Shown here piece by piece: positions 7,571-63,624 of a stretch of DNA of 64,000 bases. The stretch is from Caenorhabditis elegans. Lineage: Eukaryota > Nematoda > Chromadorea > Rhabditida > Rhabditidae. Location: the NCBI RefSeq assembly GCF_000002985.6, contig NC_003280.10, forward strand, positions 9,854,501 through 9,918,500. The letters run 5' to 3'. How positions within the stretch are numbered: position 1 is the stretch's first letter; each line of letters begins with the position of its first letter. Below the pieces are notes generated by a model. The model was not told the DNA's origin and did no database searches. It saw nothing but the letters and a program-made list of their open reading frames with translations. A program made the position numbers and the translations under genes.

Positions 7571-7614
7571 AAATACACATTAAAATTAAACTAAAACGGT
7601 TACAGAAACTCACA

Positions 7615-12147: not shown

Positions 12148-14210
<2,063 letters not shown>

Positions 14211-14955
14211 TCCACGCCTCTGGGAGCTTACTTCATTTGGGCTGAAAATATTTGAGTACATTCCCGAATTCCCGAAATAGTCTGAAATAATAAAAATACC
14301 ACAACGGAAAAATCAAAAAATGTTACATGTTCAACTATTACAAACGTATGGTATATTTCGAAAATTTGAATTTCCTCCTAAATGCGAACTGCACGACCAA
14401 TCAGCAACTCGCGCCGCCCACTTTTCAGCCAATCAAAAGGAGTATGAGAAGATCGAATGCGCTGATTGGTTGGAAAGTGGGCGTGACGTCTCGTTCACCA
14501 GGGAATTCAATTCTGTTTTGTGTTTTTTTTTTTTTGAAATATAATTTTCATTTACGCTACTTCACTATGTATTAATAACTTTCAATATCAAATATTCAAC
14601 AAAATATAAATATGTTTTATGTTATGTTCGATCAAAAAGTTAAAGGGTTTTAGTTTTATTTTTTGAAGAAAAAAGACAAAACGGAAAGGATACATTACTC
14701 ATCCACTAATTGTCAATTAATGAAAAACATCGCGGTATCTTTCTTTCTACAGAATAAGGTATAATACCACATCGCTTTACAGCAAATCACATCAAAAATT
14801 TGATACAAATTTGTGTTGACTTTTCTGCGGTAAAATGGTTTTTGTGAAAAGAGGTTTCCATCGTTGTGTCATATAATTTTTAAAATATAGAATCTGGTAG
14901 CTGATTTCAAGACTTAAAGTTTGGGAATTTCGTAGATACACAAGTTTATTTAAAT
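14211..14955. other. intergenic interval, kinase promoter and 3' flank of next chil gene
   Basis: Apart from the CCAAT/CRE cluster at 14380-14500, I see AT-rich sequence without coding structure. Confidence 0.6.
14380..14500. promoter_or_regulatory. CCAAT-box cluster and CRE-like site upstream of the kinase gene
   Basis: About 170-290 bp upstream of the kinase ATG there are CCAATCAGC (14397), CCAATCAAA (14431) and the reverse form GCTGATTGGTT (14460), with CGCCCACTTT and AAAGTGGGCG arranged around them as an inverted repeat, then GTGACGTC (14483). CCAAT and CRE-like sites are common promoter elements; direct binding here is an inference. Confidence 0.45.
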
Positions 14956-16672
14956 TCAACCACAAAGTGAAATCAGTGTATTTCCACTTCCTCCTTCACA
15001 TAAATCTGCAGATGAAACCACATTTAATAAAGTATCATTGTTATCATCGGCTCCCAATGCCCATATATACACTCCGCCAATATTATGATCTGCTGCGTAA
15101 TCCATTTTCGCTTGCAGACTTCGTTCATTTTCGAATACAAAGAATTTCCTCTCCTCGCTGTTCCAAATATAAGGGATCTGAGTTTCTTCATGCCACAAAG
15201 CTTCTGATTTATCCCATCCTCTACCAGCTAGGTTCTTCCAAGCAACAAACATTCCTTGTGCTTTACCATTTATTAAATCCGCTTCCTTAAACATTTCATC
15301 TGGCACATTGTCATTCACATTCTCCCAATATCTTCCGTAAAAAGAGAGTGCCATGTTTAGTTTACTTGGAGTCCTTGTTTTACATATCAAGTATTGCATT
15401 GTTTCATCAACATTTTCTCTATTACCTCCATATAACGGGGCATTAGGTCCAACAAACTTTCCATTCACTCCACTCCATGGTGCATAGTATCCATATGTGA
15501 GAACATTCAAAAAATCTACATAGTGAAGGAGTCCATCCATTCTGAGGTAATATTCCAAATCACTTGGAGAGCTTGGAACAATTATGCTCAGAAGATAACG
15601 AGTACCTTTTGGTTGGGCTTTTGTTAATGCAGCTAGTTTTTTCCGAAGTTCCTTTATTGTAGTAATAAAATCATTCATTTCGCTTATGTTGGGCCATTCC
15701 CAAAATAGATCCACACCACTCGCATTGTTGGATTTGATGAATGAAACAATAGAATCTATGAACACACTGAAAGATATTAGAATCGTTGAATTAGAAGAAC
15801 TTAAAATAATAACCTTCTTTTAGTAGAATCTGCTACAACAGTAGAATAATGTTCGGCATTTTTGTGTCCACCGATAGAAAACATAACTTTTACATTCATT
15901 AGCTGGGCTTTTCTGTTAATCTCCAAAAAGCGCCGTCTCTGTGCTAAATTCTCAAAGAACACGTGCCCAGAGGAGTTCATCGGAACATTTGTGAATATCA
16001 AATGAGTCAGTTTTTGTAGTTGTTTTGCAGATATTTTGCGAGGCTCCCAGTCGGTGTAGTATCCAACAATTCGCTTATTACACTTTGCAGATGGAGGTTG
16101 ATCTGGAATTAATTTTTCATTTTTTAATCAATAGAACAGTGTTGCAAGACTCACAATGATGTGACAAGTAATCGCTTTCTGGATTAGTATTGGTCGTGAA
16201 TGAATCTTCATTCAAAGAGTTTTCTATAAACAGTTGGTCAGTGGTAGGATCTCTTATTTAAGTAAAATTTCCACAAATGTAGTTTTTTTTTAACTCACCA
16301 ACGTCTTCAGCCTTCTTTGGCGCATGCAGTGCTCTGACATTTATTGAATTTATAATTATTCCAATGTATTCTGAAATAACTATTTTTTAAATAAACACCA
16401 ATTCTAAAACTAACTTGAAGCAGTTTCATTATTTCGGTATGCGTACATAACTATCTCTGACAGAGTGTATGCAATTGGAATTGCCATGATTAAAATAACT
16501 ACTAGTATACTTATTGAGTACGTGATGGTTTTAGTAGATAGAGCATTTCCATTCCTGCGTCTGCTAAAAATAAAATAAAATTTTAACTCAAAACGTTTAC
16601 TTGCATACCTTACTTGTCTCTATTTTCCAAAAGCAAATCATTAACTCGTGGTGTTATGTTTTCTGATGGCAT
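14956..16672 (-). CDS. chitinase-like protein (chil family) that keeps the catalytic Glu position
   Basis: Exons 16614-16672, 16415-16563, 16299-16370, 16155-16223, 15814-16102 and 14956-15766, about 482 residues. Type II membrane protein: cytosolic MPSENITPRVNDLLLENRD, membrane segment SISILVVILIMAIPIAYTL, a stalk in two small exons, GH18-like domain. More diverged than the 1-10 kb group (GVYIWALGADDNNDTLL at the C terminus) and with an extra intron inside the domain. The catalytic strand reads SGVDLFWEWP: aligned to DGxDxDxE, the Glu is present but the first and third Asp are Ser and Phe. The Asp that orients the substrate acetamido group is therefore missing, so activity is doubtful. Confidence 0.9.
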
Positions 16673-17159
16673 TCGAATGAAAATGTGTAAGTCGATATGA
16701 CAGAAAGTGAAATTGATAATTTGAATCAGGTACAGCAGCGAATCAAATAACAACTGAGTCTGAAAACAAGCTTTCAGAGTGTATTTTGAATGAGCAAGTG
16801 TGAACAAAACGTTTTTGATAGGAATATCTAAACGAATATGACGACTCTCAAACCGGTTCTAGTTACACTTATCAATGCGGAAATAATGAGGAATTGATAT
16901 TGAAGGGAAGATTGATCCATTGTTAATGGCTTTTTGAACCTGTTCATACTTATGCTAATGTTGTATGTTCAAAAGGTTATACTGTATGTACAGTAAGGTG
17001 TGCAATACTAATTTTTGGGCACTTTAGAGACTGCAAAACTATTGGAGGCGCTGCATTTATAAAGAAAAAACGGTACTTGTCTGAAACGAAAAAGCTCACT
17101 TCTAACACTTTTGAGCATTTACTGAACATTAATTGAATCGAACAATCTTCAAACATTAA
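16673..17159. other. intergenic interval between two chil genes
   Basis: No coding exon or clear repeat seen; it holds the 5' flank of the 14956-16672 gene and the 3' flank of the 17160 gene. Confidence 0.6.
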
Positions 17160-18451
17160 TTATCGAGTGCAGTTGTATTTAGTTTCGCCTCCACTTTTCT
17201 TTAAACTTGGAAGATTCGTGACCACAACATTGAGAAGAGTATTTTCCTCATCGTCATCATCAATCGTGTACATTGCTACTCCTCCAATATTGTGTGCAAC
17301 TGCGTAGTTCATCTTTTCTGTCAAACTTTTCTCATTTTCAAATGTCAAAAATTGTTGTGTATCCGCTTTCCAAATATACGGGGTTCTTGTTTCCTCATTC
17401 CATTCAAAATCATTTTGGTCGAATCCATGAGACATCCGTGCGAATTGTTTCCATCCGTACGAGTATGGTCCTTGTGCCGAATCGTCCGGGATCCATACAC
17501 CTTTATCGTCGAATGGAAGTGTAGTGTTACCCCAGTAAATTCCATTGAATGATACCACCATGTTTAATTTGTTTGGTGTTCTGGTCCGACATATCAAGTA
17601 TTTCAATGTATCGTCTACGTTTCCAAACGAGCCACCATAGAGAGGGGAATGTGGTCCAATCTTGTTAGCTTCATAGAAATATTCAAAAGTAATCACATTG
17701 ATAAAATCAACATTTTCCAAGATTTCTGTCCACTTGTAAGGATATTCCGAGTGTGAGCTTGAACTTGGAGCAATAACACTGATAACATACTCATTTGATC
17801 TTCCATTCTCATCTTTCAAATTTGTCAACTTTTTTCGAAGTTCTCGGATGAAAATCAAATAATTCGATTGATCTGTAATAGAAGGCCAATTCCAGAATAT
17901 ATCAACACCATCCAGGTCAAACTTTTTTACAAGTAAGGCAATGGAAGCAATTAGTTTTCTGAAAAATTAACTGTCCTTCAAGATCTACCATATACGTGCT
18001 CACTTTTTCTTTTTCACTAGCACATCAGAAAATAGCGGGGAAGATTCATAACCACCAATTGAAACCATCACTTTCAGCCCTCGATTCAACTCCATCGATT
18101 TTCTTTTCATATCAAAAAATCCATCTTTTGTGCCATATTTGAATTTGATAGTTCCGTCCTTGTGGACCAAGATAAAAGCAAAAATAACATGAGTTAGTTT
18201 CTCTAGCTGTTTAATTGTTATTTCTGATCCCTCGTCACTAGAAACATATCCTATAATTCGTTTTCTATGGAGCACTGATGGTGATTGCACTGAAAATTTG
18301 AATAAGTTCGATTAATTTCAAGATACCTCTGCTTACCTGAGTTTGAGAAGTCATAAAAATAACAAAATAATGATGACACCAGAAAGGAGACAATCCCAAA
18401 AACAAAAAGTAGTACAAAAATTAGAATTGCTAGTTTATAGGTCTTGGGCAT
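17160..18451 (-). CDS. chitinase-like protein (chil family)
   Basis: Exons 18337-18451, 18004-18289 and 17160-17958, about 399 residues with the ATG at 18451 (MPKTYKLAILIFVLLFVFG). An in-frame upstream ATG at 18538 would add 29 residues; I prefer the inner one because it places a short basic segment before the membrane anchor. After the anchor comes a very short stalk, then the GH18-like domain (KRIIGYVS, LKVMVSIGG, GPHSPLYGGSFGNVDDTLKY). The catalytic strand is DGVDIFWNWP: third Asp to Phe, Glu to Asn. It ends GGETKYNCTR. Confidence 0.85.
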
Positions 18452-18763
18452 TCGATTTGACAATTGATTTTCAAAGATAAAAACAATCAGAAATTGAAAG
18501 AAGGAAACTGTCGAAAACGAATCAAAAACTGCAATCAATCACCGATACCATTGAAATAACAAAATAAACACATTTGTGTAATCTTTTGAATTGATTTATC
18601 AAGGAACCTTCAATCGACTTGAGCGTTCGGAAATGTTCCATTGCTTCATCAAGTTTTTTGAAGCTGTTGCAAAACTTCAACTCTACGAATCCTATATTTT
18701 TATATCGAGCTTTACAAATAAGGATATAACTTTTTACACATCAGAAAAAGATATAATAAAGGT
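18452..18763. other. intergenic interval between two chil genes
   Basis: No exon supported except the optional N-terminal extension noted for the 17160 gene. Confidence 0.5.
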
Positions 18764-20102
18764 TTATTGAATACGTTTCATTAACAAATTTGAATTGCTA
18801 CAGCGATATTTCATTGTACCCCCAGAACCTCGTGCGCACATATCCATGGATGTTAATGCATTCAAAAGAGAGTTGTCATTGTCATCTTGATCCACATTCC
18901 ATATAACAAGTCCTCCAATATTCTTGTTTCGAACATAAATCACCTTCTCCGATAAGCTTTTCTCATTTTCAAAAGCTAGAAATATTTTAGATTTCGGGTC
19001 CCAGGCATATGAGCTTTTAGACGAGTCATGCCATTGTGGAATTGTATTTCTTCGGTCCTTAATGAATTTCCTCCATCCAATACTTTTACCCGGGCCATTC
19101 TCATTCTGAGCTACTTTCCAAATATCGTCTTGCTCGTTGAGCCCGTCTTTCACACCATTCCAAAATATTCCCGTGAAAGTGACTCCCATATTGAGAATAC
19201 TCGGTCTTTTTGTAATGCAAGTTAAATATTTCAATGTTCCATCTACATTTCCTCTTTGTCCACCATATAATGGAGATATTGGACCGATATTAGCTCCATT
19301 ACCGGGTAATGGCTCATAATAGTTGATTGATAAGACGTTGAGGAAATCAATGTGATTCATTAAAAGTTTCAGATTGAAGCCTTCCAGCTGTTGAGCTAGT
19401 CGCGGAATAGCAATAGATATGATCATATGTTTCTCAAGTTTTTCTCGAAATTCCTTTATGAATAGATGGAATGTATCCTCGTCTTCTGGCCATGACCAGA
19501 ATATATCGACACCATCAAACTTGTGATCAACGACAAAAGAAGATATAGACTTTATGAAGGAACTGAAGTATGTAAATAAAATAACTTTTTAATTTTTATA
19601 TGTGCTCAATTTTGGCAGAATGACTTACTTTTTCTTTTCATCTTCTGCTAAAACCGAGAAAAATTTGCCATTTATTTCAACCATTATTTTAAGGTTTGGA
19701 TTGTCCATCTTTGCTTTTCTTGCGTAACTTTCAAAATTTTCACAATTTGGCCATTTGATTGTCCCATTTGGAAATATACTAATTGAGGTAAATATGAAAT
19801 GAGTCAGTTTTTTGAGCTGATGATTACTGAGAAATTTTGCAGAGTAAGCAACGACGCGCTTCTGGCATTTGAAATTTGCCATTAGTTTCGAAGAATATTC
19901 GTAGTTTATTTCTGAAAAAATTACTTTGTTACTTCGAAGTTACAGACTCACCATTTGTTTCAAATGCTTCCGAATCTTCCAAATAAAACAAAACTGCACT
20001 CGACAGTCCATAGGCCACCATCGCACAAGTAATCAAAACTAAAGTAATTAGCAGAAAAATTTTGCAAAAATATTTCCATTTCACAGTTATATCTGAAATC
20101 AT
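18764..20102 (-). CDS. chitinase-like protein (chil family), outermost copy
   Basis: Exons 19952-20102, 19629-19911 and 18764-19562, about 410 residues from an ATG at 20102 (MISDITVKWKYFCKIFLLIT). Membrane segment about residues 13-37, stalk, then GH18-like domain (KRVVAYSAKFLSN, LKIMVEINGK, GPISPLYGGQRGNVDGTLKY). The first strand motif is more decayed than in the others and the catalytic strand reads DGVDIFWSWP, with Phe and Ser at the third Asp and Glu positions. It is divergent with the carboxypeptidase gene, 576 bp away. Confidence 0.85.
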
Positions 20103-48558: not shown

Positions 48559-51500
48559 TCAGAGCTCTGATTTGCCGGTGGCTGAAATGATTTTTTTTTC
48601 TTTTTTTGTGAAATAAAACAAAACCGTACCAACACACTTTTCCGGTGTTCCTGACCATGCTCCACCATTCAAGCATTGATATATTTTCAGAGGCTGCAGA
48701 GCAATTTCAAATGAATAGTCTTTTTCACAAATGTGATATATCTTTTCTCCAACTGAATAGGAATCTTTAATCTCGGACGACGTCGGGCGGGTTGTTGAGT
48801 TGAGATTTAGGTTGAGGGAGGAGCATGTAGCAGTGGATGAGATTACAGTTGTTGGCTTGGCAGTTGATGTTGCTTTCTGGAATAATACTTATTATAAAGA
48901 TGTATGCTAAATCTGAGACATACACATCCTTCAGAATCGGAAATAGTATCAGTTCTAGTCGTATTGGTTGTTGGATTGTAGACCAATTGTTTCAGAACAG
49001 TAGTGCAATTCGGGAATGCAGTCAAGGATTCGGATATGATCTAAAAACTGAAATATTTCGAAACTGTCATTTGCTTGAAAACTACAATTTCTCCAGAGGG
49101 AAGCATCCGAGTAGTTCCACCAGTTGGCCAGGCGAAAGTTGTGGTTTCGAGAGTGGATGAATCGATTGGATTGTTTGAGTTAGTTGTTCTCGAAACCTAT
49201 ACAGATCATGAATTGGATAATGTTGTTTCATTTCAATTTATTTCGTTCATGAAGTTTATTTTCCGAATTTATCTTATTAACTTACAGTGGTTCCTCCTGT
49301 TGTTCCGGGAGACATTGTTGATGTCGTTCCACTGGAAGTGGCTTTCTGAAAAAATTTTGATAATGGTTTAGTTAAAATATAAAATATTCATCAACTAGTA
49401 GTTGAAACAGGGAGTTAATAAAAAAAAATACTCTCGTAGCAGTGAATTTCTAAAGTCAAGAAAAAATTTATGTTCAGTCGAGCTACATTTTCAGGTGTTA
49501 TGATTGAAGTTTCTAATCATTTGGTAAACTTACACATCCTTCCGCATCACTTGTTGTTTCAGTTCGAGTCGTGTTTTTGCTAGGGTTGTAGATCAATTGC
49601 ATTAGCACAGTTGTACAATTCTTATACGCAATCAAGGATTCCGACAGAATCTGAAACATGTATACTTCCAAATATGGATCAGAGAAACCACACTTACAAT
49701 TTCTCCAGATGGCAGTGTTCGAGTGGTTCCTCCAGTTGGCCAGTTGAATGTGGTTGGTGTTTGTGTAGTTGAGGTTGCTTTCTGAAATTAGAAATTGTAT
49801 CTAGGCTGATTTCAAAATGGGAAGAATCATACACATCCTTGAGCGTCACTGGTGGTTTCAGTCCTAGTCTTATTTGTGCTTGGGTTGTAGATCAATTGCA
49901 TTAGAACGGTAGTGCAGTTTTTGTAAGCAATCAGCGATTCGGAGAGGATCTAACAATAATTGATAGAAATGATTGCATAAAAGATTTTTTTTACAATTTC
50001 TCCAGACGGAAGAGTCCTGGTTGTCCCACCTGTTGGCCAATTGTATGTTGTTGTTATTGGGGTTGGTGTTGTGATTGTTGCCTTCTGAACTCGGTATTGT
50101 GATATATCTTTGAAACAAAAAATTTATTTAATTCACTTACACATCCCTGCGCGTCAGTGGTAGTTTCCGTTCTAGTCTTGTTAGTTGATGGGTTGTAGAT
50201 TAATTGCATCAAAACTGTGGTACAGTTTTTGTAGGCAATTAGTGACTCAGATAGAATCTGAACTTTTTTAATGATTAAGTTTGCAAACTTATTGATTGCT
50301 CACAATTTCACCAGATGGGAGAGTTCTAGTAGTTCCCCCAGTTGGCCAGTTGTAAGTGGTAGTTGGAGGAGAAGCAGTTGAAGATGAAGGAGATGTGGGC
50401 TTTAATGAAGTCGATGAAGTTGCCTTCTGAAATTGAAAATGTTTTCATGAGGTATGTACATCTCTGATAGTAAGACGAAAATAAACTGTATTTCATCCAA
50501 TATTTTTACACAATGTTACTCGAATTTCGCAGATTGCTGTTCAATAAACATATATAACTTACACATCCTTGAGCATCGGTTGTGGTCTCTGTTCTAGTTT
50601 TATTGGTACTAGGATTGTAGATCAACTGCATAAGAACTGTTGTGCAGTTTTTATAAGCAATCAATGACTCTGATAAAATCTGAAAAATATTCGCTGTAAG
50701 TTTAGGGTTTCGGTATACTACAACATACAATTTCTCCAGATGGAAGCGTACGAGTAGTTCCACCAGTTGGCCAGTTGTAGGTTGTAGTCATGGAAGTAGA
50801 TGTAGGAGTTGGTTTTGAAGAAGTGGGTGATGTTGGAGTTGTGGAGATTTTTGAGGTGGAGGACGTTTTTTTCTGAATTCACTATTTTTGATACAACTGT
50901 GAAGGAATTGATCCACGTACACATCCTTCTGCATCAGTTGTAGTCTCTGTTCGGGTTTTATTAGTACTCGGATTGTAGATCAATTGCATAAGAACTGTCG
51001 TACAGTTTTGGAAGGCTATGAGAGACTCCGAAAGAATCTGTAAAAACTTTTCTATAACGTGAGAGGTTTAGTGTCGAGCCCTACAATTTCTCCAGATGGA
51101 AGCGTCCTCGTCGTTCCACCAGTTGGCCAATTGTAAGTGGTGGTGCCGGAAGAAGGAGTAGGTGTTGGAGTTATTGAAAACTTTGACGAAGATGAAGAGA
51201 TCGTAGACGTTTTCTTCTGAAACAAGTTTTGTGCTTTTGAATATCTTTTCCAGGATTATCACATACACATCCTTCTGTATCCGTAGTGGTCTCTGTCCTG
51301 GTTTTATTGGTGCTTGGAGTGTAGATGAGTTGCATGAGAACCGTCGTACAATTTGGATAAGCTATTAGAGACTCCGACAGAATCTGAAAACATTGGACTT
51401 TTCTTAAAGCAGTAAAATAAAATATTGAAACTCACAATTTCTCCAGATGGAAGCATCCGAGTAGTTCCGCCAGTGGGCCAGTTGTAGGTCGTGGTTCCTG

Positions 51501-54500
51501 GGGTAGGAGTCGGAGTTGTTGAATGTTTTAACGAGGGCGTAGAAGATGAAGTAGAAGACGTCTTCTTCTGAACACCAACTTGTTAATTCAGACTCGTTCT
51601 TAGAGTAAGATGACTTACACATCCATCGGCATCAGTTGTAGTCTCTGTCCTAGTTTCTTTTGTACTTGGATTGTAGATCAATTGCATAAGAACTGTAGTA
51701 CAGTTAGGATAGGCTATCAAAGACTCGGAAAGAATCTGCAATTTTTTTCTAACCTGAGCATAGAGATGTAAATCGAAACCTACAATTTCTCCTGATGGAA
51801 GCATCCGAGTAGTTCCGCCAGTTGGCCAGTTATAGGTTGTGGTTCCTGGGGTAGTAGAAGGAGTTGCAGTTGTTGAGTGCACCGAAGTTGATGAGGGCGT
51901 TGGTGTCGAAGATGTTTTCTTCTGAATACGATGTTTGAGATTTGAACTTTTGCAAATCAACCAAGCTAACTTACACATCCTTCTGCATCGCTTGTTATTT
52001 CTGTTCTAGTTTCTTTGGTTCTTGGATTGTAGATCAATTGCATAAGAACTGTGGTACAGTTTGGATACGCAATTAGAGATTCCGAGAGAACCTGAAAATA
52101 ATTGAAACTAGAAAAAAAAGTTTTGTGAGCTTGTACAATTTCTCCAGATGGGAGCATCCACGTAGTTCCTCCAGTTGGCCAGTTGTAGGTGGTCGTTGGA
52201 GTCGCTGGTGTTGAGCTAGTACTTGGAGCTGACGTGAAATTAGTTGTCTGCAAAGTAAAAAATTGTTTCAGTTAACTTTAGTGACGCCTATGTCAAAAAC
52301 TAATTAATGTAATAACTTACAGTAGAACCGTTCTCAATAGTCGAAGTTTGGGCATTGGATGATTCTGAAACTTTGGGTTCTATGGAATTTTTTCACATAA
52401 TTTCTATACGAACGTGTACTTGAATCTGAGCTAGAAGATGTTGAGGTTGCTGTAAAATCCGTTGATGTCTCAGGAGTCTCAGATGTTGTGCCAAAAGTGG
52501 AGGTTGAATGTCCTCCTGATGATGTCGAAGTACTCTGCTCATTTGTGGAAAGAGTTGTCAATCCTGTCGTGGGAGTGCTGCCGACTGTAGAACTCTCTGG
52601 AACAGTGGATGTTGATGCCGGAGATGATTGAGACGTGGTAGAAGAGCTGGACGTCTCAGCCATTGGAGAGGACGTAGATGATTCAGATGTCGATGCAGAT
52701 GTGGGCACTGTTGTTGAGCTACTGGGTTTGTCTTCAGCTGAAACAAAAAATTAAAAAAAAAAGTTTCTAAGAACCGTCAATTACTGCTTCAGACATTCTT
52801 AACATTTCCAGTCACCTACATGTTCTAGTTTTCTGGACCGATGAAACTGTAGAACTTTGCTCCATTGGAGTTGTGATTGTAGTAGATGGTTCTGTAGATG
52901 GAGTTGTCGTTTGAGTTGAGCCAGTAGATGATGATTCACGTGTTTCCGTCTCTGTTGTAAGCAATGTTGTAGAAGATAACATGGTAGAACTTGAAGTGGT
53001 TGTTGATAAATCTATAGTTCAATAAAAATTTGAATATGTTGATCCGAAACTTACTTGAGCAGTTAGTCCAAAGCATAGACTGCTGGGGGCAGGCATTCGG
53101 AGTACAATATAGCAGGTTTATCAAAGCGTTTGCCTTGTTCCAAGAATCGGATGTGGTAAGAATCCACCTAGTACTATCACTGCTATTCAAAACTTGAATT
53201 GAAGTTTCAGAGCAGCATCCCCCATTATATCTTAAGTTTGTTTGTTTTCCATCTATCCACTCGGAAAAATTAGATGGTTCGGAGAGCCAATAACAGTTCA
53301 AACTTGGAGATGTTGTTGTTGGCAAGGAAGTGGTTGAAGCGATTTCTAAAAAAACATGATTAATGACAATTTTGCATTTTTATATAAATTTGTTTTCCTG
53401 ATGGATGCACCAAACCTGAGACCGTTAACGTAGAAAGGAACCGACCGAGATGTGTGCTTAAATAGAATTTGACTTCCGAATTTGGATTTTTCAAACTTTT
53501 CAAAGTACTCTCAAAATGTCCAGTCCTAGATTTAATAAATTGGCGAGGAATGGGAAATTGTTGTTTTTGTTTAGAAACAGCTGGAACTGTTATTAATAAC
53601 ATTTCTTCTAGTCTTCAAAACAATTCTTCAATTGAGCACCATGATTTCAACAAGGATTAAACCGGCACTACTAAACACTCTAAAAAACTCGCGGTCTAAA
53701 AATTTAACTGTACCCGTTTCAGTACTGCTTGATGTCAATACGCAATCACATTTCTCCAGTTCTCGTTCATATCCTTTAATTAAAGTGACATTTCGCCAAT
53801 CCTCATATTGTTTCGACAAGCATTCAGTCACTTTGAGATTACAGCATGATGTGTTTGCCAATACTCCACATTGAATAGATGTTGTTGTTGTAGGTACACT
53901 CGTGGTTTCAGCAGTTGTGGAGTCTGAAAATTTTAAATTTTTGGTCAGTTTTAAAATGAAACTTGTTAAAATCCCATTTACCAAAAAAAATTTAACCATA
54001 GCTCATTATTTGTACACAAGAAAATTGTCATGTTGGCTGTCATATTTAGAGGAGCCCTTACATGACCTTACCCCATTCGATGACGGAACCGCGGATGGAT
54101 TTTTGTGGTTGGATATCTAGTTGACTACGGAAACTGTTCATAATAAGTGTTTTTGAAAAATTGAAAGAAAAAAAAGTCAAATGTTACAAAAAACTGTGAG
54201 CAAAACCTAAACTTTTATCCCAGAATTCCATAAGAAACGACGCCTCGCTGCAGCTCAAAAATTATTTTTTGCAGGCAAGTCGCGAATTTACAAAAAACGT
54301 TCACGTTTACTTTGTTTTGGACCCGGTATAATTTTTAAACAAACCTATTCTAACTATCGGAATAAACTTGGTGCTAGTCTCAATTGTTGTAGTTTTAAAT
54401 GCAAGAACCCCACAAATTCCGTTTGACTTCAGTTCGGTTACATAATTAACTCGGTCCAACCATGCCTTTTTCCAATCTTGCCCATATTTTGTGTTTAAAT

Positions 54501-54645
54501 ATGTCACTGATTCAGAGGTGCAACATTCTTTATTATAGTTCATCAAATAATTAGGTAGAGCGAGCCAGTTGCAGTCCACTGTTTGACATAACGATGTTCT
54601 TGTTAATAAAGTCAGAAATATACAAAGAAGAACGGAAAGTTGCAT
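48559..54645 (-). CDS. mucin-like secreted protein with tandem exon-pair repeats and a sushi-like domain
   Basis: About 27 exons and roughly 1270 residues. Exon 1 (54345-54645) carries a signal peptide (MQLSVLLCIFLTLLTRTSLC) and a CC domain (CNWL, ECC, W, C). Exons 53714-53923 and 53055-53345 carry two more copies of that domain (CGVL, SCC; CYWL, GCC). Exons 52820-53011, about 52420-52737 and 52321-52364 are Ser/Thr-rich and mucin-like. Then come nine A-B exon pairs between 52247 and 48924, an extra Thr-rich exon 49286-49345, and finally 48630-48876 with a four-cysteine sushi-like domain (YSVGEKIYHIC, GGAWSGTPEKC) and a 23 nt last exon 48559-48581. There is no membrane anchor, so it is probably secreted and heavily O-glycosylated. 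The donor near 52414-52420 is ambiguous. Exon 1 may be one of several alternatives. It corresponds to F26C11.3 by memory. Confidence 0.85.
48924..52247 (-). repeat. nine tandem copies of a two-exon unit
   Basis: A exons (Thr-rich, ending WPTGGTTRMLPSGEI): 52137-52247, 51784-51921, 51436-51567, 51085-51216, 50729-50872, 50304-50426, 49995-50084, 49698-49781 and 49086-49196. B exons (SESLIAYPNCTTVLMQLIYN, TRTETTTDAEGC): 51975-52091, 51619-51735, 51267-51383, 50921-51037, 50563-50679, 50141-50257, 49833-49949, 49534-49650 and 48924-49040. Every B exon is exactly 117 nt and all exons are phase 0-0, so the gene can gain or lose units without changing frame. The unit length is near 350 bp in the upstream half, with short introns. 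The last copy is the most diverged. Confidence 0.92.
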
Positions 54646-54712
54646 GCTCTAGGCAAATGAACATTTGAGGTTATTTTTTTGCTTTTATGTGTCATTTGAC
54701 TTATTGTTTCAG

Positions 54713-54726
54713 TTTCTCGTAGCAAC
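54713..54726 (-). promoter_or_regulatory. X-box-like motif upstream of the mucin-like gene
   Basis: TTTCTCGTAGCAAC, 68 bp upstream of the ATG at 54645. It keeps the strong AGCAAC half of the RFX X-box (rYYnYYATrrnrAC) but the other half is imperfect. Confidence 0.5.
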
Positions 54727-55168
54727 GAATCGTAAAAAACTAAATTTCTATTTAAGGATGTTTCGGAGCACATGTGATCTCATGTATCAAAAAAACTACG
54801 GAGCAATTGAAAACAATTGCAGATCTCATGATCGTTGCAGAAACTACGATTTAGGATGTTGCCAGGAAACGCTTGCTCGCCGGATATTTTTCTTGCAAAA
54901 CAATCGAAACGCTCTTTAGCTAGATCTAGTGAGAAAACTACCATATTATGTACGCGCTTCGGTGATACATTTCGTGTAGCACTCCTCAAGGACCATAAAT
55001 TTCAATGGAATTATTGTTGAAAAGTGTAAAATTGCTAGTTTTACGAAAGTTGATTAATATTTTTCAGTTTTGCTTTGAACACCCCTGTAAAACCGGCACC
55101 TCAATGCAGTCTTTGCTTAGTACAAACACATTCTTTATAGAACAATATAATTGTTTTTCAGCACTTAC

Positions 55169-55244
55169 TAAAATCTGTAGAAGATGTAAAAGTTTTGGAT
55201 ATCAAAAAGAATATAAATATATGGTAGATACAAGTGTTTCTCAT
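55169..55244 (-). CDS. signal-peptide exon lacking the CC domain (deleted cassette)
   Basis: ATG at 55244 opens MRNTCIYHIFIFFLISKTFT, then SSTDF and a donor GTAAGTGC in phase 1. The 76 nt exon matches the start (MRN...) and the end (STTDF) of the 57207-57537 cassette but lacks the CC domain between them. Position, phase and an X-box-like site 92 bp upstream match the other cassettes, so it is either a decayed copy or a leader-only alternative first exon. Confidence 0.5.
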
Positions 55245-55335
55245 GTTCAGACTGAGCTCTGGTGGGTGTGAAAATAAATTGGAAGTAAAAGTGTGAAATG
55301 TGTTTCTTTTGGTATAAAAAGTTCCCGTTTCCTAT

Positions 55336-55349
55336 TTGTTCCTAGCAAC
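55336..55349 (-). promoter_or_regulatory. X-box-like motif
   Basis: TTGTTCCTAGCAAC, 92 bp upstream of the short cassette at 55244. Strong AGCAAC half-site, imperfect first half. Confidence 0.5.
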
Positions 55350-55517
55350 ATGTCAACTTTTTTCATATTACATAACGACAGGGTGAGAATGCCTGTTTTC
55401 AGTATGTCTACACTACTCGAATCTATTCGAGGCATTTTCTCGCCAAAAACTGTAACAGATATATAAAAAATAAATTGGCACAGATTCCGGCTAGATCATG
55501 AATTCGATGAAACTCAC

Positions 55518-55828
55518 CCAAGTCTGTAATAGAGGTTTCTGTAGTTGTGAAACTTGTCGTCAGTTTTTCTGTTGTAGAGAGAAAAGTACTGCTGTTTTCA
55601 CAAAGTCCTGAGAGATCTCAGTTCAGCAATATACAATGATCGTGTTTCATTAAGTGTGTACTTCCATTTATAGTTTCTATTCAAATAATCAAAAGCTTCC
55701 GACGTGCAACATTCAGATGGGTTTTGGGAATCCAAGCCAAAACCCAACGCGTCGCAATTAGAAAACTGACAAAACACTCCGGAAAGGGGAACAAATATGA
55801 AAATGACGTAGATAACTGTGTTACTCAT
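55518..55828 (-). pseudogene. CC-domain signal-peptide exon with a frameshift
   Basis: MSNTVIYVIFIFVPLSGVFC signal peptide, then FSNCDALGFG, ECCTSEAFDYLN and ETRSLYIAELRS. At about 55615 the frame shifts: the expected GLCENSSTFLSTTEKLTT continues in another frame up to a donor at 55517. The exon is 311 nt where the intact copies are 1 mod 3, consistent with a 1 nt insertion or 2 nt deletion. In the original frame it stops at once (RTL then stop). X-box-like site at 55926. Confidence 0.7.
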
Positions 55829-55925
55829 CTCCTGACTAAATCTTCATGTAAGCGAAAACAAGTATGAAACAATGAAACATATACGGAATGAGAAGCTTTG
55901 CGCCAATGAAACTCTCGTTTCCAAT

Positions 55926-55939
55926 GTTTTCTTAGCAAC
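55926..55939 (-). promoter_or_regulatory. X-box-like motif
   Basis: GTTTTCTTAGCAAC, 98 bp upstream of the ATG at 55828; one mismatch to the X-box consensus (T for A at position 7). Confidence 0.6.
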
Positions 55940-56469
55940 ATGTCAAAAGCTTTAAAGAAACTGAATTTTAATAGATGTCATTGGTTTTCTGCGCTACGGC
56001 GGGCAATGTTGAGATCACGCTTCATATTTTTATTCAGTCTTACTGTAACTGGATTTGATTTGTCATGGGTTTTGACTCAATGCTCGTAAACTGTGGCGTC
56101 GTAAACTAATTTCATATTGCTAACGGGAGATTGTGTTATCATCATATAATTTTTATACATACATGCAAAAACTGGGGGACTGGATTCAGGATAAAAAAAT
56201 TCAGAAGAATCTTCATGAGAGCCTATTTTTCTATATCAACAAAGTCAATCAAAACGCAAAATCATAGATAACTCGCAGCCAACACCATGAAATCTGAAAA
56301 GCAGGGTAACATTCGCAACGCACACGAAGAATACCGGGACACGGAGAATACTCATGCGGGCTATAAGAAATTCTGGATGCGAGTAGTGGACTCCGATCTA
56401 TGTTTCAATCGATGCTAGTGATATTTTAATCACGCCGTACACAAATGCGGTTTGTGTTCTAAAACTCAC

Positions 56470-56797
56470 CCAAATCCGCAGTGGAAGGCTCTAAAGTTGT
56501 CAAGCTTGTGGTAACTTCTTCCGTGGTAGCAATGGAAGCAGTTGAGCTGTTATTACCACAAAACCCGTTAGATTTCAATTCGTAAAAATAAGCGGTTCGG
56601 TTTTCTTCAGACGAAGAAAACCACAATTGACTATACTTAGTTTCCAAATATTCATAAGCTGCCGAGTTACAGCATTCGCTTGTATTCTGGATATCCAAAT
56701 CACCAAAAGCTCGGCCACAGTGATATCTTTGCCCCTGGCAAAACGTTCCAGATAGCAGGGAACATAAGAGAATAAGGCAGATAAATTTATTTTTCAT
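56470..56797 (-). CDS. secreted CC-domain protein or alternative first exon
   Basis: MKNKFICLILLCSLLSGTFC signal peptide, then HCGRAFGDL, ECCNSAAYEYLETKYSQLWF, AYFYELKSNGFC and a Thr-rich end (SLTTLEPSTADLG). The donor GTGAGTTT at 56469 is in phase 1; without splicing the frame ends three codons later (EF then stop). The CC domain matches the one in exon 1 of the mucin-like gene. It could be a 112-residue secreted protein or the start of a longer transcript spliced to exon 53714-53923, which accepts phase 1 (G|AC). I see no other Thr-rich exon before the next cassette. Confidence 0.7.
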
Positions 56798-56885
56798 TTT
56801 CAGACTCAGATTTCATAGATGCAAAAATGAGAATGAAATGACGAGAAAAGTGTTTATATTGCTTCATGAAACTCTGGTTTTCAAT

Positions 56886-56899
56886 GTTGTCATAGAAAC
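56886..56899 (-). promoter_or_regulatory. X-box motif, full consensus match
   Basis: GTTGTCATAGAAAC, 89 bp upstream of the ATG at 56797. It fits rYYnYYATrrnrAC at every position. RFX (DAF-19 in C. elegans) sites of this form drive genes in ciliated sensory neurons. Confidence 0.7.
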
Positions 56900-57206
56900 A
56901 TGTCAAATGTCTCATAGAAACTGAATTTTAATAGATTTTCCGACTTTTAGCGCCTTAGCGGGGTTCATGCGCCTGAGAGATATATATTTATTCAATCAAA
57001 AGAAGATAGCACATGACATAGAGATCACCGGTGAGAAGGATTGAGTAATGATGAGTAATGAGAGATAATAAAATGATCACATAAACCAGACATAGTTAGG
57101 GTGATCCAGTTGGGGGAAGTTAGGATTTTGCCACAAAAATAGCCCATACTATAGCGAGATGCCGTATTCACTAACGCAATCCTACCAGAAATTCTTCACA
57201 ACCCAC

Positions 57207-57537
57207 CAAAATCTGTAGTAGAAGTTTCCGAGATAGTGAGCGTTGTAGTCAGTTCTTCTGTTGTAGAAAACAAAAAAGTTGAACTGCTAATTCTACAATA
57301 TCCTTTTGATCTCAATTCGGAGATGTATGAAGATCGAGTTTCATTAGATCTATTTGGCCAAAATAAATCTTTCGAATACAAATAATTAAAAGCATCTTTA
57401 GTACAACATTCTGACGAGTTTTCTGAATCCAAACCCCGAGTCAACGAGCTACAAGGGTAAAATCCAAGTGATTGGCAAACAGTTTCGGATAGCAGGAAAG
57501 ATACAAGTATAGCGGAGTAGACAAGTTTGTTTCTCAT
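57207..57537 (-). CDS. secreted CC-domain protein or alternative first exon
   Basis: MRNKLVYSAILVSFLLSETVC signal-peptide region (starting MRNKLVYS, ending SETVCQ), then PCSSLTRGLD, ECCTKDAFNYLYSKDLFW, ETRSSYISELRSKGYC and a Thr-rich end (TTTLTISETSTTDFG). Phase-1 donor GTGGGTTG; read-through stops after three codons. Closest to the 56470 cassette. X-box at 57633. Confidence 0.7.
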
Positions 57538-57632
57538 CGTCAGACTACGTTTTCATGTATGCAAAAATTAAATCGACACAACAAGAAGGAATGAATTGAT
57601 TTTCATCGGTATATGAAATTCTCGATTCCAAT

Positions 57633-57646
57633 GCTTTCATAGCAAC
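57633..57646 (-). promoter_or_regulatory. X-box motif, full consensus match
   Basis: GCTTTCATAGCAAC, 96 bp upstream of the ATG at 57537, agrees with rYYnYYATrrnrAC throughout. The flanks (CAATG before, ATGTC after) are shared with the other sites in the cluster. Confidence 0.7.
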
Positions 57647-57959
57647 ATGTCAAATGTCTCATAGAAACTGAATATTAATAGATAGACTTAGTTGCTCCGT
57701 GCTGACGCGAACGATGTTGAGAAGATCAAGTTTTTATCTTACTGTAACTATGTTAGCCCTTTATTCGGCAATGACCATGGCCACCATTTCTAGAAATTGA
57801 TCTATGATCTGACTTTTGACAGTCTTAATCATCAAAAATATAGATACGTATTAAAAAGCTGGCAAGCGCACGCTAGGTCGCTAGGGGCACTATTCCTAAG
57901 TCGTTCAATAAGTTTTGCTGTTTTTTCACTTTTGATTTTTTCTTGGATATTTTTTTGCT

Positions 57960-58140
57960 GTTGTATAGAGGACTGTTAGAAAGCATTCTTCTCCCCTATC
58001 AATTTTCTGAATTTCCCGATCCCAAGATTCTAATTTAAATCATTCTGATGTATGTATGTGGAAACACTATGAGAAATATAAAGTGTGTTTTTCGGCTCAT
58101 AAAAAGCTTGGTTCTACCGATTTCCTAGCAACATGTCCGT
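57960..58140 (-). pseudogene. remnant promoter of a lost cassette, with X-box-like site
   Basis: GATTTCCTAGCAAC at 58119-58132 lies in the same flank as at the intact cassettes (CTAGCAACATGTC, then AGAAACTGAATTTTGTTAGA upstream on the minus strand). At the expected start distance there is only ATGATTTAA, so the coding part is gone. The palindromic element at 58297 sits just upstream. Confidence 0.5.
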
Positions 58141-58296
58141 TCTACACAGAAACTGAATTTTGTTAGACATATTTGGATTTCTGTGCAGATGCGGGTAGTC
58201 ATGGGACTATGAGGTCACACCTTTTTCTTGTAACTACTAGTCTTTCGACAAGGCCTGCTGCTCTGTTGAAATTAAGCCACTAGATTTGTGAGAATA

Positions 58297-59277
58297 CAGT
58301 GCGTACAAGTTCTATACGCCACCCCAAAATGTATTCCTGTGGCCACGTGCGTACTTTTAAGAAAAATTCTGCTAATGCCATTCGATTCCAAATCCTAAAA
58401 AACCTAGGATCATGAATTTTCATGACCTTACCTCAAAAACTAAAGAAATGAGGTCAATAAATCGAAAAATTGGCCGTACAAGTTCTATACGCCACCCTCA
58501 ATTTTTTGTTGATTTTTTCAAAACTTTCAAATTTAGAGAGACAGTTAAACAGCACATCAATAATTTCGAGTGAATATCAGTGCAGTGTAGCTTTTCCTAC
58601 AACCACAGACAGTTTTGTCCCAATTCGTACTTCCGTGGAGCCCTAATGGCGCCGAAGGGCCTGAAACGTGGATCTCGGCTCCCACCTGAGATACAACATC
58701 AAAAATGTGGGGATATGTTCAAGACACTATTCCAACATCTCTCGTGAATTTTGGTCTAAATTGGACTGTTCCTCGTCTCGATAGTAAAACATTTCTGTGA
58801 GATCCCGCCACTTTTTGGCTACTGGCATGCTTAGAGGCCGACATCATGTCTTGAACATATCCCCACATTTTTGATGTTGTATCTCAGGTGGGAGCCGAGA
58901 TCCACGTTTCAGGCCCTTCGGCGCCATTAGGGCTCCACGGAAGTACGAATTGGGACAAAACTGTCTGTGGTTGTAGGAAAAGCTACACTGCACTGATATT
59001 CACTCGAAATTATTGATGTGCTGTTTAACTGTCTCTCTAAATTTGAAAGTTTTGAAAAAATCAACAAAAAATTGAGGGTGGCGTATAGAACTTGTACGGC
59101 CAATTTTTCGATTTATTGACCTCATTTCTTTAGTTTTTGAGGTAAGGTCATGAAAATTCATGATCCTAGGTTTTTTAGGATTTGGAATCGAATGGCATCA
59201 GCAAAATTTTTCTAAAAAGTACACACGTGGCCATAGGAGCAAATTTAGGGGGTGGCGTATAGAACTTGTACGCACTG
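58297..59277. mobile_element. 981 bp palindromic element flanked by TA (non-autonomous Tc1/mariner type)
   Basis: Ends CAGTGCGTACAAG and its complement CTTGTACGCACTG, flanked by TA on both sides. The two halves are inverted copies of about 420 bp (for example CCTAGGATCATGAATTTTCA near 58408 and its complement near 59150) around a central spacer near 58730-58855. GTACAAGTTCTATACGCCACC occurs both at the tip and again inside each arm (near 58473 and 59078). No transposase ORF, so it must move in trans. Terminal ...CAGT and TA duplication are typical of Tc1/mariner. Confidence 0.85.
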
Positions 59278-59446
59278 TATGCGAGGAATATACGCTTCAA
59301 AGGCAACTTCTGAGATAATGCTCCAAGGTTGGCAGTTATAATACCCACTTTTAGGGTATAACTTTCCATAGCTTAAACGTTGAACATTATTTTTTATCGA
59401 CCGATATATATGCTGTACTTCAATCGTAAATCTACATTCTACTAAC

Positions 59447-59780
59447 CTGAGTCTGTAGTATAAATTTCTAAAGTTGTAGAGGACGTTGTCAGTGGTGTAG
59501 TTGTGAGAATAGCAGAAGTTGAAATAGTCTTGTTGCAGCAACCCATGAATCTCAGTTCGTTAATATACGGAGATCGAACATATTTATTGACCTTTCTCCA
59601 GTTCGGGTACTTCTTATCCAAAAAGTCAAATGCTTCCGTGGTGCAACATTCCACAGGGTTTTTGTTATCCAAATCTTGGGACAACGCTTCGCAATCATCA
59701 TTGCTTGTTGTGGTGTTTTGGCAAAAAGTTTCAAAGTGTAGGCAAGATAGAAACATAGTATAGATCAGATTGTTTCTCAT
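59447..59780 (-). CDS. secreted CC-domain protein or alternative first exon
   Basis: MRNNLIYTMFLSCLHFETFC signal peptide, then DCEALSQDLD, ECCTTEAFDFLDKKYPNW, PYINELRFMGCC and a Thr-rich end (SSTTLEIYTTDS). Phase-1 donor GTTAGTAG at 59446; read-through stops at once (G then stop). It is separated from the next cassette downstream by the palindromic element. X-box-like site at 59888. Confidence 0.7.
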
Positions 59781-59887
59781 TGTTTAAAAAAATTTTCATG
59801 AATAAAAAAGTCAGGTCAGTATAAAAAATTTTAAAAAAAAACGAATGAAATGTGCTTTTTTCGGCTCATCAACTTGCAGGACCCAAT

Positions 59888-59901
59888 GATTTCCTAGCAA
59901 C
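59888..59901 (-). promoter_or_regulatory. X-box-like motif
   Basis: GATTTCCTAGCAAC, 108 bp upstream of the ATG at 59780, identical to the site at 58119 of the remnant cassette. Confidence 0.55.
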
Positions 59902-60358
59902 ATGTAAGATAAATTTAGCTTTCCGTGCAAAAGCGGCGGATTATGTGACTATAGTATATATGAGATCATACATATATTTGTTTTCAATATAAATATTCAG
60001 CAAATGACTTTGAATATTGGAAGAAGATTGATACATTTGCGAAAAAAATGTGAGGAAAATACTGTTCAAAAAAGTAGAGTCTCCGCTCGAAAATCAATTT
60101 CTCGTAGGTTTTGAGTTTTGATAGGATAGTCTGTACATATTGGAAGATTCTATTTGAAAAGTTTTCCATAAAACTAACAATTTTCTTTAGATTCATTAGA
60201 GTGTGCGACAGGTAAGTTTGACTTATAGTTTGACTATTATGGTACCCATTCCCCGCAAAATTGGTTTTGTCTGTTCCTCTACCGACACTCACGGAATATG
60301 AACATAATTTTAAAGTTAGTTCCACCTTGTACTTCTTCAAAATATCCAAACCACGTAC

Positions 60359-60599
60359 CTATAGATGATCGACATAAACCTTGAGCCATTGCGTCATTGA
60401 TATAAATATCGGCCACCAAATTTATGTTGGAAATCGACATCCGCCAGACTGGACTATGCTTATTATCCAAATATGAAACTGCTTGTGGTGTGCAGCACAG
60501 TCCATTATTGTATATTGGGTTGCTGAGCCAGAAACAATCAAATGCAATTATTTTTGGAATAAGTAAACTTATCACAACTAGATTTCGAACCAACGTCAT
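60359..60599 (-). CDS. secreted CC-domain protein or alternative first exon, most distal copy
   Basis: MTLVRNLVVISLLIPKIIAF signal peptide, then DCFWLSNPIYNNGLCCTPQAV and SYLDNKHSPVWRMS, ending AQGLCRSSI. It lacks the Thr-rich tail of the others and resembles the domain in the mucin exon at 53055-53345 (CYWLSEP). Phase-1 donor GTACGTGG at 60358; read-through would add about 25 residues. X-box-like site at 60668. Confidence 0.65.
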
Positions 60600-60667
60600 T
60601 TCAAGGAAGAAATAAAACTAAAGTAGTAAAGTATAAAAAAGGGAAATCCTGAACATTTCGTAGACAA

Positions 60668-60681
60668 ATTGCCCTGGCAAC
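60668..60681 (-). promoter_or_regulatory. X-box-like motif
   Basis: ATTGCCCTGGCAAC, 69 bp upstream of the ATG at 60599; a good imperfect palindrome with one mismatch (C for A at position 7). Confidence 0.6.
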
Positions 60682-60937: not shown

Positions 60938-61770
60938 TTATGGAGTTATCCATGTTCCGTTCGGCAGTTTGTATGCGCATCTGAACATTTTGTATTCCTT
61001 GGAAAATTTCTCCAAATGCCATTGTTCAGAGTTAGTGTTGCAGATGAGAGCACCGTCGATTTGGAACTCGTTTTCTTCGATCTAAAAAAGTTGTATGTTA
61101 AATAGGGTCCTCGGGAAAATAATAGAAAGTTCTTGTCGTTCTTTCAAAATTTGATGTTTAAATATTCCGTCATTTTTTCGGAGGAAATATACAACTTGCA
61201 ACAGCAAAACATTTATATATGTATTTGTAACTTGAATTTTCCGCAAAAAAATGTTTTTTATGGAAAAAATGAAATTTGATGTTTCCGCCAAAGCGTGATA
61301 AGTGATGACGTTTGGTAACCAGAAAAGTCATATAAACTTCTTATTTGTGTCCTTCATAGTAAGAAACTTACAATATCAAACTTGTGCCCACCATTTCCAT
61401 CAAATCCAGCAATGCCTGTTGCAGTAAAAGCAAACGATGTAACTTGGCACATTATGGAAATTGGCTCTGAACACTGGAAGGCTGCTGCAGTCACATTCAT
61501 TACAGATACATTAATTGCGTCAACCGGGTAGCCGCAGCAAGCTGGAAATTGATATTGATTGCAGGAAGTAGATGTGTGTTCAGCGGTTATTCCAAAAAAG
61601 CTTATATACAGTTAAATTCAAAAACAGACTCCGTTTAAAATTATTTTAGCCAAAACCATTAGTTTTAAACCCTCATAGTTTTTTGAAGGATTTTCCAACT
61701 CACATTGTCCATTGGTCATAAAAACTAGTGAAGAGAAAAGAACCACAGAGGAGAGAATCTGGTGAAACAT
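60938..61770 (-). CDS. small secreted cysteine protein, paralogue of the 62661 gene
   Basis: Exons 61704-61770, 61372-61541 and 60938-61081, 126 residues. Signal peptide MFHQILSSVVLFSSLVFM, then SCCGYPVDAINVSV, FQCSEPISIMCQV, a Gly-rich loop GIAGFDGNGGHKF, LICNTNSEQWHLEK and RCAYKLPNGTW. Cysteines CC...C...C...C...C before a GxW end recall the nematode C6/DUF281-type secreted domains, a tentative comparison. Introns sit in the same phases as in the neighbouring paralogue. TATAAA lies about 60 bp upstream on the minus strand. Confidence 0.75.
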
Positions 61771-62660: not shown

Positions 62661-63439
62661 TTAGAGAAACGTCCAAGTTCCATCGGCGGCTCTTTCTCCA
62701 CATTTGATCAATGCGTACTCTTTGACGCCATTCTCCAAATGCCAAAGTTTGGATTCTGTGTTACAAATAAATGTTGCGTTGAGTCTTGAGGGTGCGACTT
62801 GAAGCTGAAAATTCATATTTTTGCTAAAAAGCTAAGTTTTAATGGAAGTTATTTCAATTGAATAATCAAATTTGCTCTTTTTTTCCACAAACTTTGTATG
62901 AAAAAAATACAGTAAATTTTAGTATCAGATTTGAAGACTTCGTACTCGTTGCTAATTGGAAGCTTTGGTTTGAGAAAACATACAATGTCGTAGTTTTCGT
63001 CATTTAATTGATAACCTGCAACACCTGCAGCCTTATCCGGTTCAACCACATAAAGTTGGCACAAAACCGAAAGCGGTTCGGAGCATTCAAAATCCATTGG
63101 AGGCTTACTAGCGCTGTTGGTATATGGCGAAAAGGGCCATTGGCAACAACCTGGAATAATATTACTGTAAACTGAGGAGATACCAATTGCTTTATGTTTT
63201 CAAAGCGATCTACGCCTACTTCAAGCCTTCTGAGAATATTCAGTTCAATCAGTTTTGCTTGAAAAAAAAACGGTACATAGGCAGGTATGCATGAAGAGAT
63301 TCTTATTTTAAACTTGCAGTTTTCATTATTTAAAACTATTAGCTGCAATTTTCAGACAATGTTAATCAAACGCACCTTCAGCAGAAACTACCGTGATAGT
63401 TGTAGAAAGCAAAAACAAGGTGAGAATAGCCACATACAT
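62661..63439 (-). CDS. small secreted cysteine protein, paralogue of the 60938 gene
   Basis: Exons 63376-63439, 62984-63150 and 62661-62804, 124 residues. Signal peptide MYVAILTLFLLSTTITVVSA, then GCCQWPFSPYTNS, FECSEPLSVLCQLYV, AAGVAGYQLNDENYD, FICNTESKLWHLENG and KCGERAADGTWTF. Same exon count, phases (1, 0) and last-exon length (144 nt) as its neighbour, so a tandem duplicate. Function unknown; a secreted role is inferred. Confidence 0.75.
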
Positions 63440-63624
63440 ATTAGAATAGTTGTGAAAACTGAACAGTTTGTAATGGTTTTATACAGGAATTTTAAACGGA
63501 CAAATAATAAAAACATTTAATAGTTGTAGATTTTTAATAGTTTATTGCTGATTTTATTGCTCTATTTATTGATCAATTGAAGTGATAAAACCAGAAAAAT
63601 ATGAACAGACGTATAAGATTGTTG

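Follow-up and report, generated by a model that had tools for sequence, protein, structure and literature searches.

Tandem signal-peptide exons before a mucin-like gene of Caenorhabditis elegans: candidate alternative first exons of a secreted protein

Introduction

Tandem variable first exons are the classic route to the diversity of the vertebrate UGT1 and protocadherin proteins. Whether a nematode gene may be built in a similar manner is the question raised by a stretch of Caenorhabditis elegans DNA (64,000 nucleotides of contig NC_003280.10, positions 9,854,501 to 9,918,500 of the forward strand; hereafter the window), on the minus strand of which seven short exons, each starting with a signal-peptide-like stretch, lie in a row before a mucin-like gene. 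A preliminary description of the window proposed that these exons might all be alternative first exons of that gene, adding different secreted heads to one mucin stalk, and named simple duplication of exon 1 and a set of separate short secreted proteins as other explanations. Here the locus is analyzed from the DNA of this one 64-kb window.

Alternative promoters with distinct first exons have been reported for C. elegans genes (PMC3685541). A tandem duplicated first-exon array in Caenorhabditis was not recognised in those portions of the literature that were searched, which included PMC3685541, PMC3338513, PMC8230824 and PMC4835542. WormBase may already list the units described below as isoforms, genes or pseudogenes.

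Results

Seven tandem exons, six of them open to a phase-1 end

The seven exons were located on the minus strand where the preliminary description had placed them, together with the relic of one further unit. They are listed below from the most distal to the most proximal, with coordinates of the window that run from the ATG to the last exon base.

60599-60359, minus strand: unit 1 (most distal), signal peptide and four-cysteine head, without a Ser/Thr tail; donor GTACGT; the least certain member
59780-59447, minus strand: unit 2, signal peptide, head and Ser/Thr tail; donor GTTAGT
58186-58121, minus strand: relic unit, upstream element retained, exon not found; a 67-bp, 74.6% match to 55994-55928; near a foldback repeat
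57537-57207, minus strand: unit 3, signal peptide, head and Ser/Thr tail; donor GTGGGT
56797-56470, minus strand: unit 4, signal peptide, head and Ser/Thr tail; donor GTGAGT
55828-55518, minus strand: unit 5, frameshifted head; donor GTGAGT retained
55244-55169, minus strand: unit 6, signal-peptide stretch, head domain apparently deleted in frame; donor GTAAGT
54645-54345, minus strand: unit 7 (proximal), signal peptide and head; donor GTTTGT

A hydrophobic stretch was present in all seven exons (best 10-residue Kyte-Doolittle mean of 2.0-3.2 within the first 25 residues), in agreement with the signal-peptide starts described earlier, which were judged here by hydropathy and not by a trained predictor. 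Six of the seven exons have a length of 1 mod 3 and contain no stop, and thus end in phase 1 as had been claimed; the exception is unit 5, known to be frameshifted from the preliminary description, which runs into a stop after 76 codons. Unit 6 has just 25 codons, a signal-peptide-like stretch ending in SSTDF, the cysteine domain having apparently been lost. Unit 7, by its position, would naturally serve the mucin gene as the default first exon.

The same phase at every exon end had been said to be expected from simple duplication of exon 1 as well as from a selectable N-terminus. The phases are indeed identical, but this is weak evidence when taken alone, since duplication copies phase. Phase 1 is usual for extracellular modules, and the first four shared exons of the mucin-like gene are themselves in phase 1 on both sides. 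Phase identity was rejected as evidence in its own right.

Conservation between units ends just beyond the donor

All seven units end at a donor of the form GTNNGT. With splice scores built on general nematode frequencies, the donors score 2.71-6.06 and fall within the top 0.7-3.1% of the GT sites between 53000 and 62000. Each of them (2.7-6.1) outscores at least 12 of the 18 donors of the mucin gene repeats (range -5.3 to 3.9), a comparison that covers the repeats, the other donors of the mucin gene being outside the count. Since the GT served to draw the exon boundary, the donor match is partly circular; positions +5 and +6 are free of this circularity, and homology of the exons already places the boundary in the five closer units.

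When all pairs of the seven units were compared, the donor bases +1, +2, +5 and +6 were identical in 84 of 84 comparisons. Agreement was 11/42 at +3/+4 and 13/42 at +7/+8, and from +9 to +40 of the intron it stood at 183/672 (0.27), which is the chance level. Self-comparison of the region 46.6-64 kb gave 12 direct matches with the second copy above 53000, two of which lie inside the foldback repeat. DNA homology between units extends upstream of the ATG for as much as about 210-220 nt. The donor side is reached by three matches, among units 3, 4 and 5, and these end 7-8 bases past the donor (57200, 56463, 56462, 55511 and 55510); no DNA match around the donor was found for units 7 and 1 in this self-comparison. 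Past the donor, gapped alignment of the five closer units yields the identity of shuffled sequence. By these comparisons, the duplicates are constrained from the upstream element through the signal-peptide exon to the donor, and only a few bases further.

The number of phase-1 GTNNGT sites expected by chance in the tail is 0.10 for unit 7 and 0.12 each for units 4 and 3; unit 2 was left unscored in this test, a stop lying within its donor. For unit 1 the donor is weak evidence, because 0.39 sites are expected over its longer stretch of 216 nt and three are found, the extra ones at 60293 and 60287. A donor that is retained without a private exon downstream must find its acceptor elsewhere.

Six heads can be joined in frame to the mucin-like gene

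The downstream gene was assembled as 26 shared exons spanning 53923 to 48559; the reading frame stays open up to a TGA, and an AATAAA follows 38 nt beyond that stop. It is composed of the following parts.

53714-53923, minus strand: first shared (constant) exon, Ser/Thr linker and head-type domain; acceptor TTTTCAG, phase 1
53055-53345, minus strand: second shared exon, a further head-type domain
48924-53011, minus strand: Ser/Thr-rich stalk exons and nine tandem WPTGGTT / NCTTV repeats
48559-48876, minus strand: Sushi (CCP) exon and last exon with the TGA

As proposed previously, the mucin exon at 53714-53923 takes phase 1, and its TTTTCAG acceptor is perfect (score 7.8). The six unbroken heads enter the shared frame in phase and give uninterrupted products of 1194-1280 residues (unit 5 is not among the heads joined). 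On the scores used here, the acceptor of the mucin exon is the sole strong acceptor that opens into a long frame.

In Pfam searches at E up to 0.01, nothing was found in the first 791 of the 1279 residues of a joined product, and only the Sushi domain (PF00084, E 7e-5, 23.7 bits against a cut-off of 20.7) in the last 89. By eye the C-terminus carries no membrane anchor, so the joined product should be secreted. Membership of the UGT1 or protocadherin families by descent was considered and rejected, the Pfam searches having found no glycosyltransferase or cadherin domain in these residues or, above the cut-off, in five heads and the first two shared exons.

The nine tandem repeats of the stalk (WPTGGTTRMLPSGEI / ILSESLIAYPNCTTVLMQLIYNP...GC; 48924-52247) are mostly encoded by two exons each and are without a Pfam match in the part tested. 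The repeat region 49345-49086 contains an intron, and splitting it into 49345-49286 and 49196-49086 restores the open frame.

Acceptors and 3' ends between the units

According to the preliminary description, no downstream exon fits between the units. This proved nearly right, in that the longest open stretch behind an acceptor at a cut-off of 3 is 34 codons, with one candidate exception at 56293, where an acceptor scoring 7.8 opens 10 codons. Five acceptors scoring at least 3 lie between the units, against 6.7 expected from shuffles. The 34-codon stretch lies inside the foldback repeat and is unremarkable, because shuffles average 40 codons. At a cut-off of 1, open stretches of 50 codons (in the foldback) and 44 codons were seen. 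For an exon of 69 codons, as in the case of the mucin exon, length alone would not be significant, because 9.5% of the shuffles reach at least 69 codons. Candidates for private exons other than that at 56293 were discarded for their weaker acceptors or their position in the foldback repeat.

Reading through the donor was said to meet a stop within a few codons for most units, and this is borne out: the stop follows within 1-3 codons in four units, and after 12 codons in unit 7, 26 in unit 1 and 31 in unit 5 (in the frame of its 3' part). AATAAA occurs within 150 nt of the read-through stop in none of the seven units (nearest at 204 nt), as compared with 8 of 11 control stops and 0.16-0.17 of random stretches; seven of the 11 controls are chitinase-like open reading frames with ends taken as read, and all three AATAAA misses are among these. 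With the random rate at this level, none in seven is what absence of the signal would look like.

Upstream of the exons, no AG scoring at least 1 was found within the 90 nt preceding six of the seven ATGs; the ATG of unit 1 is preceded by acceptor-like AGs of 1.0 at 74 nt and 4.4 at 49 nt. Exons with a donor but without a near acceptor look built as first exons. An ATTCAG 123-132 nt before three ATGs (scores 1.1, 1.1 and 3.0), also present in the relic (1.1), might be taken for a splice-leader site, a reading that was discarded in view of its mostly weak scores and the intervening ATGs.

A 16-base element is shared upstream

At up to 2 mismatches, the 16-base element ACATGTTGCTANGAAA has six copies in the 64 kb, where 0.32 would be expected. 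All six are at the array, before five of the seven units and in the relic.

59890-59905, minus strand: upstream element of unit 2, ACATGTTGCTANGAAA
58121-58136: upstream element of the relic, an exact copy
57635-57650, minus strand: upstream element of unit 3
56888-56903, minus strand: upstream element of unit 4, 2 mismatches
55928-55943, minus strand: upstream element of unit 5
55338-55353, minus strand: upstream element of unit 6, 1 mismatch

The best-conserved upstream block of five units, 61-120 nt before the ATG, contains this element (identity 0.68, against 0.51 when shuffled). The shared element may have promoter activity.

Two upstream blocks, 56866-56936 and 55906-55976 on the minus strand, are 86% identical over 71 bp and exceed in this the matched coding stretches behind them. 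Such identity contrasts with about one synonymous change per site between the closer units (synonymous divergence, dS, 0.88-1.61), and would reflect either regulatory constraint or gene conversion.

Selection on the heads and their relatives

The heads have evolved under purifying selection. The ratio of nonsynonymous to synonymous divergence (dN/dS) ranges over 0.33-0.62 among those pairs for which dS is finite, 12 out of 15; the other three, which involve unit 1, are saturated. In these estimates unit 5 entered by its intact first 72 codons only and unit 6 was excluded, and with dS near or above 1 the ratios are imprecise. Drift was simulated with substitutions only, indels being ignored. 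At 0.25 substitutions per site the stop-free copies per 1000 numbered 26 for unit 4, 34 for unit 3, 50 for unit 2, 31 for unit 7 and 115 for unit 1, and at 0.5 substitutions per site they numbered 7, 6, 13, 6 and 40, respectively. The surviving units were most likely kept as coding.

When searched against the window by tblastn, the heads proved to be related to one another, with E values down to 6e-20 (8e-7 to 1.5e-6 for unit 7 against unit 1). The second shared exon of the mucin-like gene matches unit 7 (3e-4 to 1e-3) and unit 1 (4e-4 to 7e-4), and the first shared exon matches unit 2 (7e-4 to 2e-3), and unit 7 at a mere 0.56. When five heads were aligned with the first two shared exons, six columns proved invariant, and cysteine occupies three of these; Pfam gave nothing above its cut-off in these seven sequences. 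Growth of the gene by exon duplication would be expected to leave such an arrangement, with an array of heads before a gene that itself contains two more copies of the head domain.

The head of unit 4 was modelled with AlphaFold2 from a seven-row alignment (mean pLDDT, the predicted local distance difference test, 61; pTM, the predicted template modelling score, 0.49), and two helices of 16 and 13 residues follow the CC motif in the model. The best Foldseek match of the model in the PDB had an E of 3.4, and sequence profile matches to PDB chains were not found at E up to 1; we make no claim as to the fold of the heads. Relatives of the head of unit 3 were not confirmed in bacterial or archaeal genome contigs or in viral contigs, as is expected for a nematode sequence.

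Surroundings of the array

The foldback repeat, at 58294-59280 between units 2 and 3, consists of two inverted 434-bp arms that are 97.7% identical, and looks like a recent palindromic transposon. Two small secreted-looking genes, at 60938-61767 and 62661-63440, adjoin the array and resemble each other by eye; in a spliced piece of the former no Pfam match was found at E up to 0.01. Farther away lies a chitinase-like cluster (1436-19939, minus strand) of eight open reading frames or fragments, counted by eye, of which that at 10279-10854 is apparently truncated. The window also holds a kinase exon (by eye), a serine carboxypeptidase (Pfam) and a vigilin gene (PDB sequence match); the vigilin gene of C. 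elegans is vgln-1, or C08H9.2 (PMC5555458). By its gene content the window probably matches the region of cosmid C08H9 on chromosome II.

Discussion

The donor signature, the limits of constraint and the sole strong acceptor of the mucin exon together make a selectable N-terminus, as first proposed in the preliminary description, the best-supported hypothesis for this locus. On these grounds we consider it probable, though well short of certain, that the mucin gene uses at least two of the units as alternative first exons.

According to this hypothesis, each unit would be a first exon that codes for a signal peptide and, in most cases, for a small four-cysteine head and its Ser/Thr linker; it would end at a strong donor and have no downstream exon of its own. 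Each would start its own transcript, the upstream element found in five of the seven units being the proposed unit promoter. The first donor would then join the acceptor at 53923 across 0.4-6.4 kb and bypass the intervening units; for the distal units, too, we infer a splice to 53923. Splicing of this kind would yield secreted proteins of about 1200-1280 residues, which differ in their N-terminal heads and have in common two head-type domains, the mucin stalk, the repeats and the C-terminal sushi domain. Unit 6 would give a headless mucin and unit 5 no long product, and the distal units may be used less, as in the sDscam genes of chelicerates. From their position and by comparison with UGT1 and the protocadherins, the heads may be used as selectable recognition modules.

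Several observations weigh against such a reading. Three of the eight units are broken or lost (units 5 and 6 and the relic at 58.1 kb), which also fits the decay of duplicated first exons. Unit 1 has neither the shared upstream element nor a Ser/Thr tail, GTNNGT also occurs in it at other sites, and its ATG is preceded at 49 nt by an acceptor-like site; unit 7 is likewise without the element, and an acceptor-like site scoring 3.0 is located 130 nt before the ATG of unit 3. The first shared exon itself ends at a weak donor (GTACAG, score -1.1). Transcripts of unit 4 could end after 10 codons by way of the strong acceptor at 56293 (7.8), and other acceptors between the units could escape a cut-off of 3, which recovers 14 of the 18 homology-supported acceptors of the mucin repeats. 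In 4 of the 7 units a variant poly(A) signal is present no more than 200 nt from the stop, where the random rate is 0.49-0.52 and the controls have one in 11 of 11. The general nematode frequencies behind the splice scores, the imprecision of dN/dS at these distances and the small numbers compared count on the same side.

The broken units raise the possibility that the array consists of leftover duplications, in which promoter and exon 1 were copied, only unit 7 is used to any important extent, and the others are decaying with donors that fire as noise. One frameshifted unit, one deleted head and one relic would be accounted for, and duplication alone explains the identical phase. Units 4, 3 and 2, however, are still open despite dS of 1.07-1.61, which drift would rarely permit, and the donor signature persists in diverged flanks; we regard this explanation as unlikely. 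More improbable still, in our view, is that the units encode separate short secreted proteins, clustered beside a mucin gene with a separate start; most would have 106-113 residues, and each would end at its read-through stop or in a tiny private exon. Such a cluster is suggested by the stops soon after the donor in most units, by the 10-codon last exon that 56293 gives to unit 4, by the small secreted-looking genes nearby (60938-61767 and about 62661-63440, by eye) and by the variant poly(A) signals in four units. Yet these variants occur at the random rate, and the counts of AATAAA (none of seven, against 8 of 11 controls) and of the variants lean against poly(A) ends behind the units. Short proteins would also leave unexplained why all seven units retain the donor signature and agree at +1, +2, +5 and +6 where the flanks are at background; conservation between duplicates is absent beyond the donor, and the stop positions vary from unit to unit.

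A mixed case, which overlaps the favoured hypothesis, is a good deal more plausible than either of these, although we would put it at less than an even chance. Here the units that bear the element are alternative first exons, and unit 1 is the remains or the start of a different gene. The missing element, the several GTNNGT sites and the acceptor-like site before its ATG speak for such a separation. Against it stand the kinship of the unit 1 head with that of unit 7 and with the mucin exon at 53345 (E 4e-4), the fit of its donor and phase, and the absence of any acceptor scoring at least 3 before the next unit.

The hypothesis of alternative first exons has parallels in other animals, and the array has the make-up of such systems: tandem homologous first exons are followed by one shared exon set, joining is in frame for six of the seven, and a donor occurs without a near acceptor in all but unit 1 (4.4 at 49 nt), a more distant site of 3.0 lying 130 nt before the ATG of unit 3. 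Clustered protocadherins (Pcdh alpha and gamma) function in neuronal membrane adhesion and have large cadherin-repeat variable exons and CTCF-linked promoter choice. The array is like them in layout but differs in these respects. In UGT1, tandem variable exons each code for a signal peptide and an N-terminal recognition domain before common exons, and maps of the cluster mark pseudogene and relic units (PMC1885805). The worm locus is similar in its tandem first exons with signal peptide and N-terminal domain, its shared downstream exons and its pseudogene and relic units (seven units and one relic here). It differs in that UGT1 is an enzyme of an unrelated family, whereas a secreted mucin-like protein is encoded here, and in that splicing is established there and proposed here. 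By this analogy the array likely works like UGT1; it is not a member of the UGT1 gene family.

The closest protostome precedent for tandem 5' cassettes before constant exons is chelicerate sDscam, where such cassettes with alternative promoters are joined to constant exons, and where distal cassettes tend toward lower use, with one exception (PMC4835542). There the cassettes have two or four exons, code for immunoglobulin domains of a transmembrane protein and are supported by RNA-seq and promoter analyses; the present array is known from its DNA. A Schistosoma japonicum family has a core promoter and signal sequence common through duplication, but it is dispersed over 18 scaffolds and is not a tandem array before one shared gene (PMC3434034).

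Whether the locus amounts to a nematode diversity system, in which several promoters put different four-cysteine recognition heads on one secreted surface or gut mucin, with birth-and-death expansion like that of UGT1 and a headless form included, is a speculative extension that we hold to be doubtful. If it were true, the worm could change what its mucus binds. The array of alternative first exons, if used, would in itself show variable heads carried by a secreted mucin rather than by a receptor or an enzyme. Constraint that stops just past the donor may also serve as a sequence signature for finding further arrays that may have been annotated piecemeal as short genes or pseudogenes.

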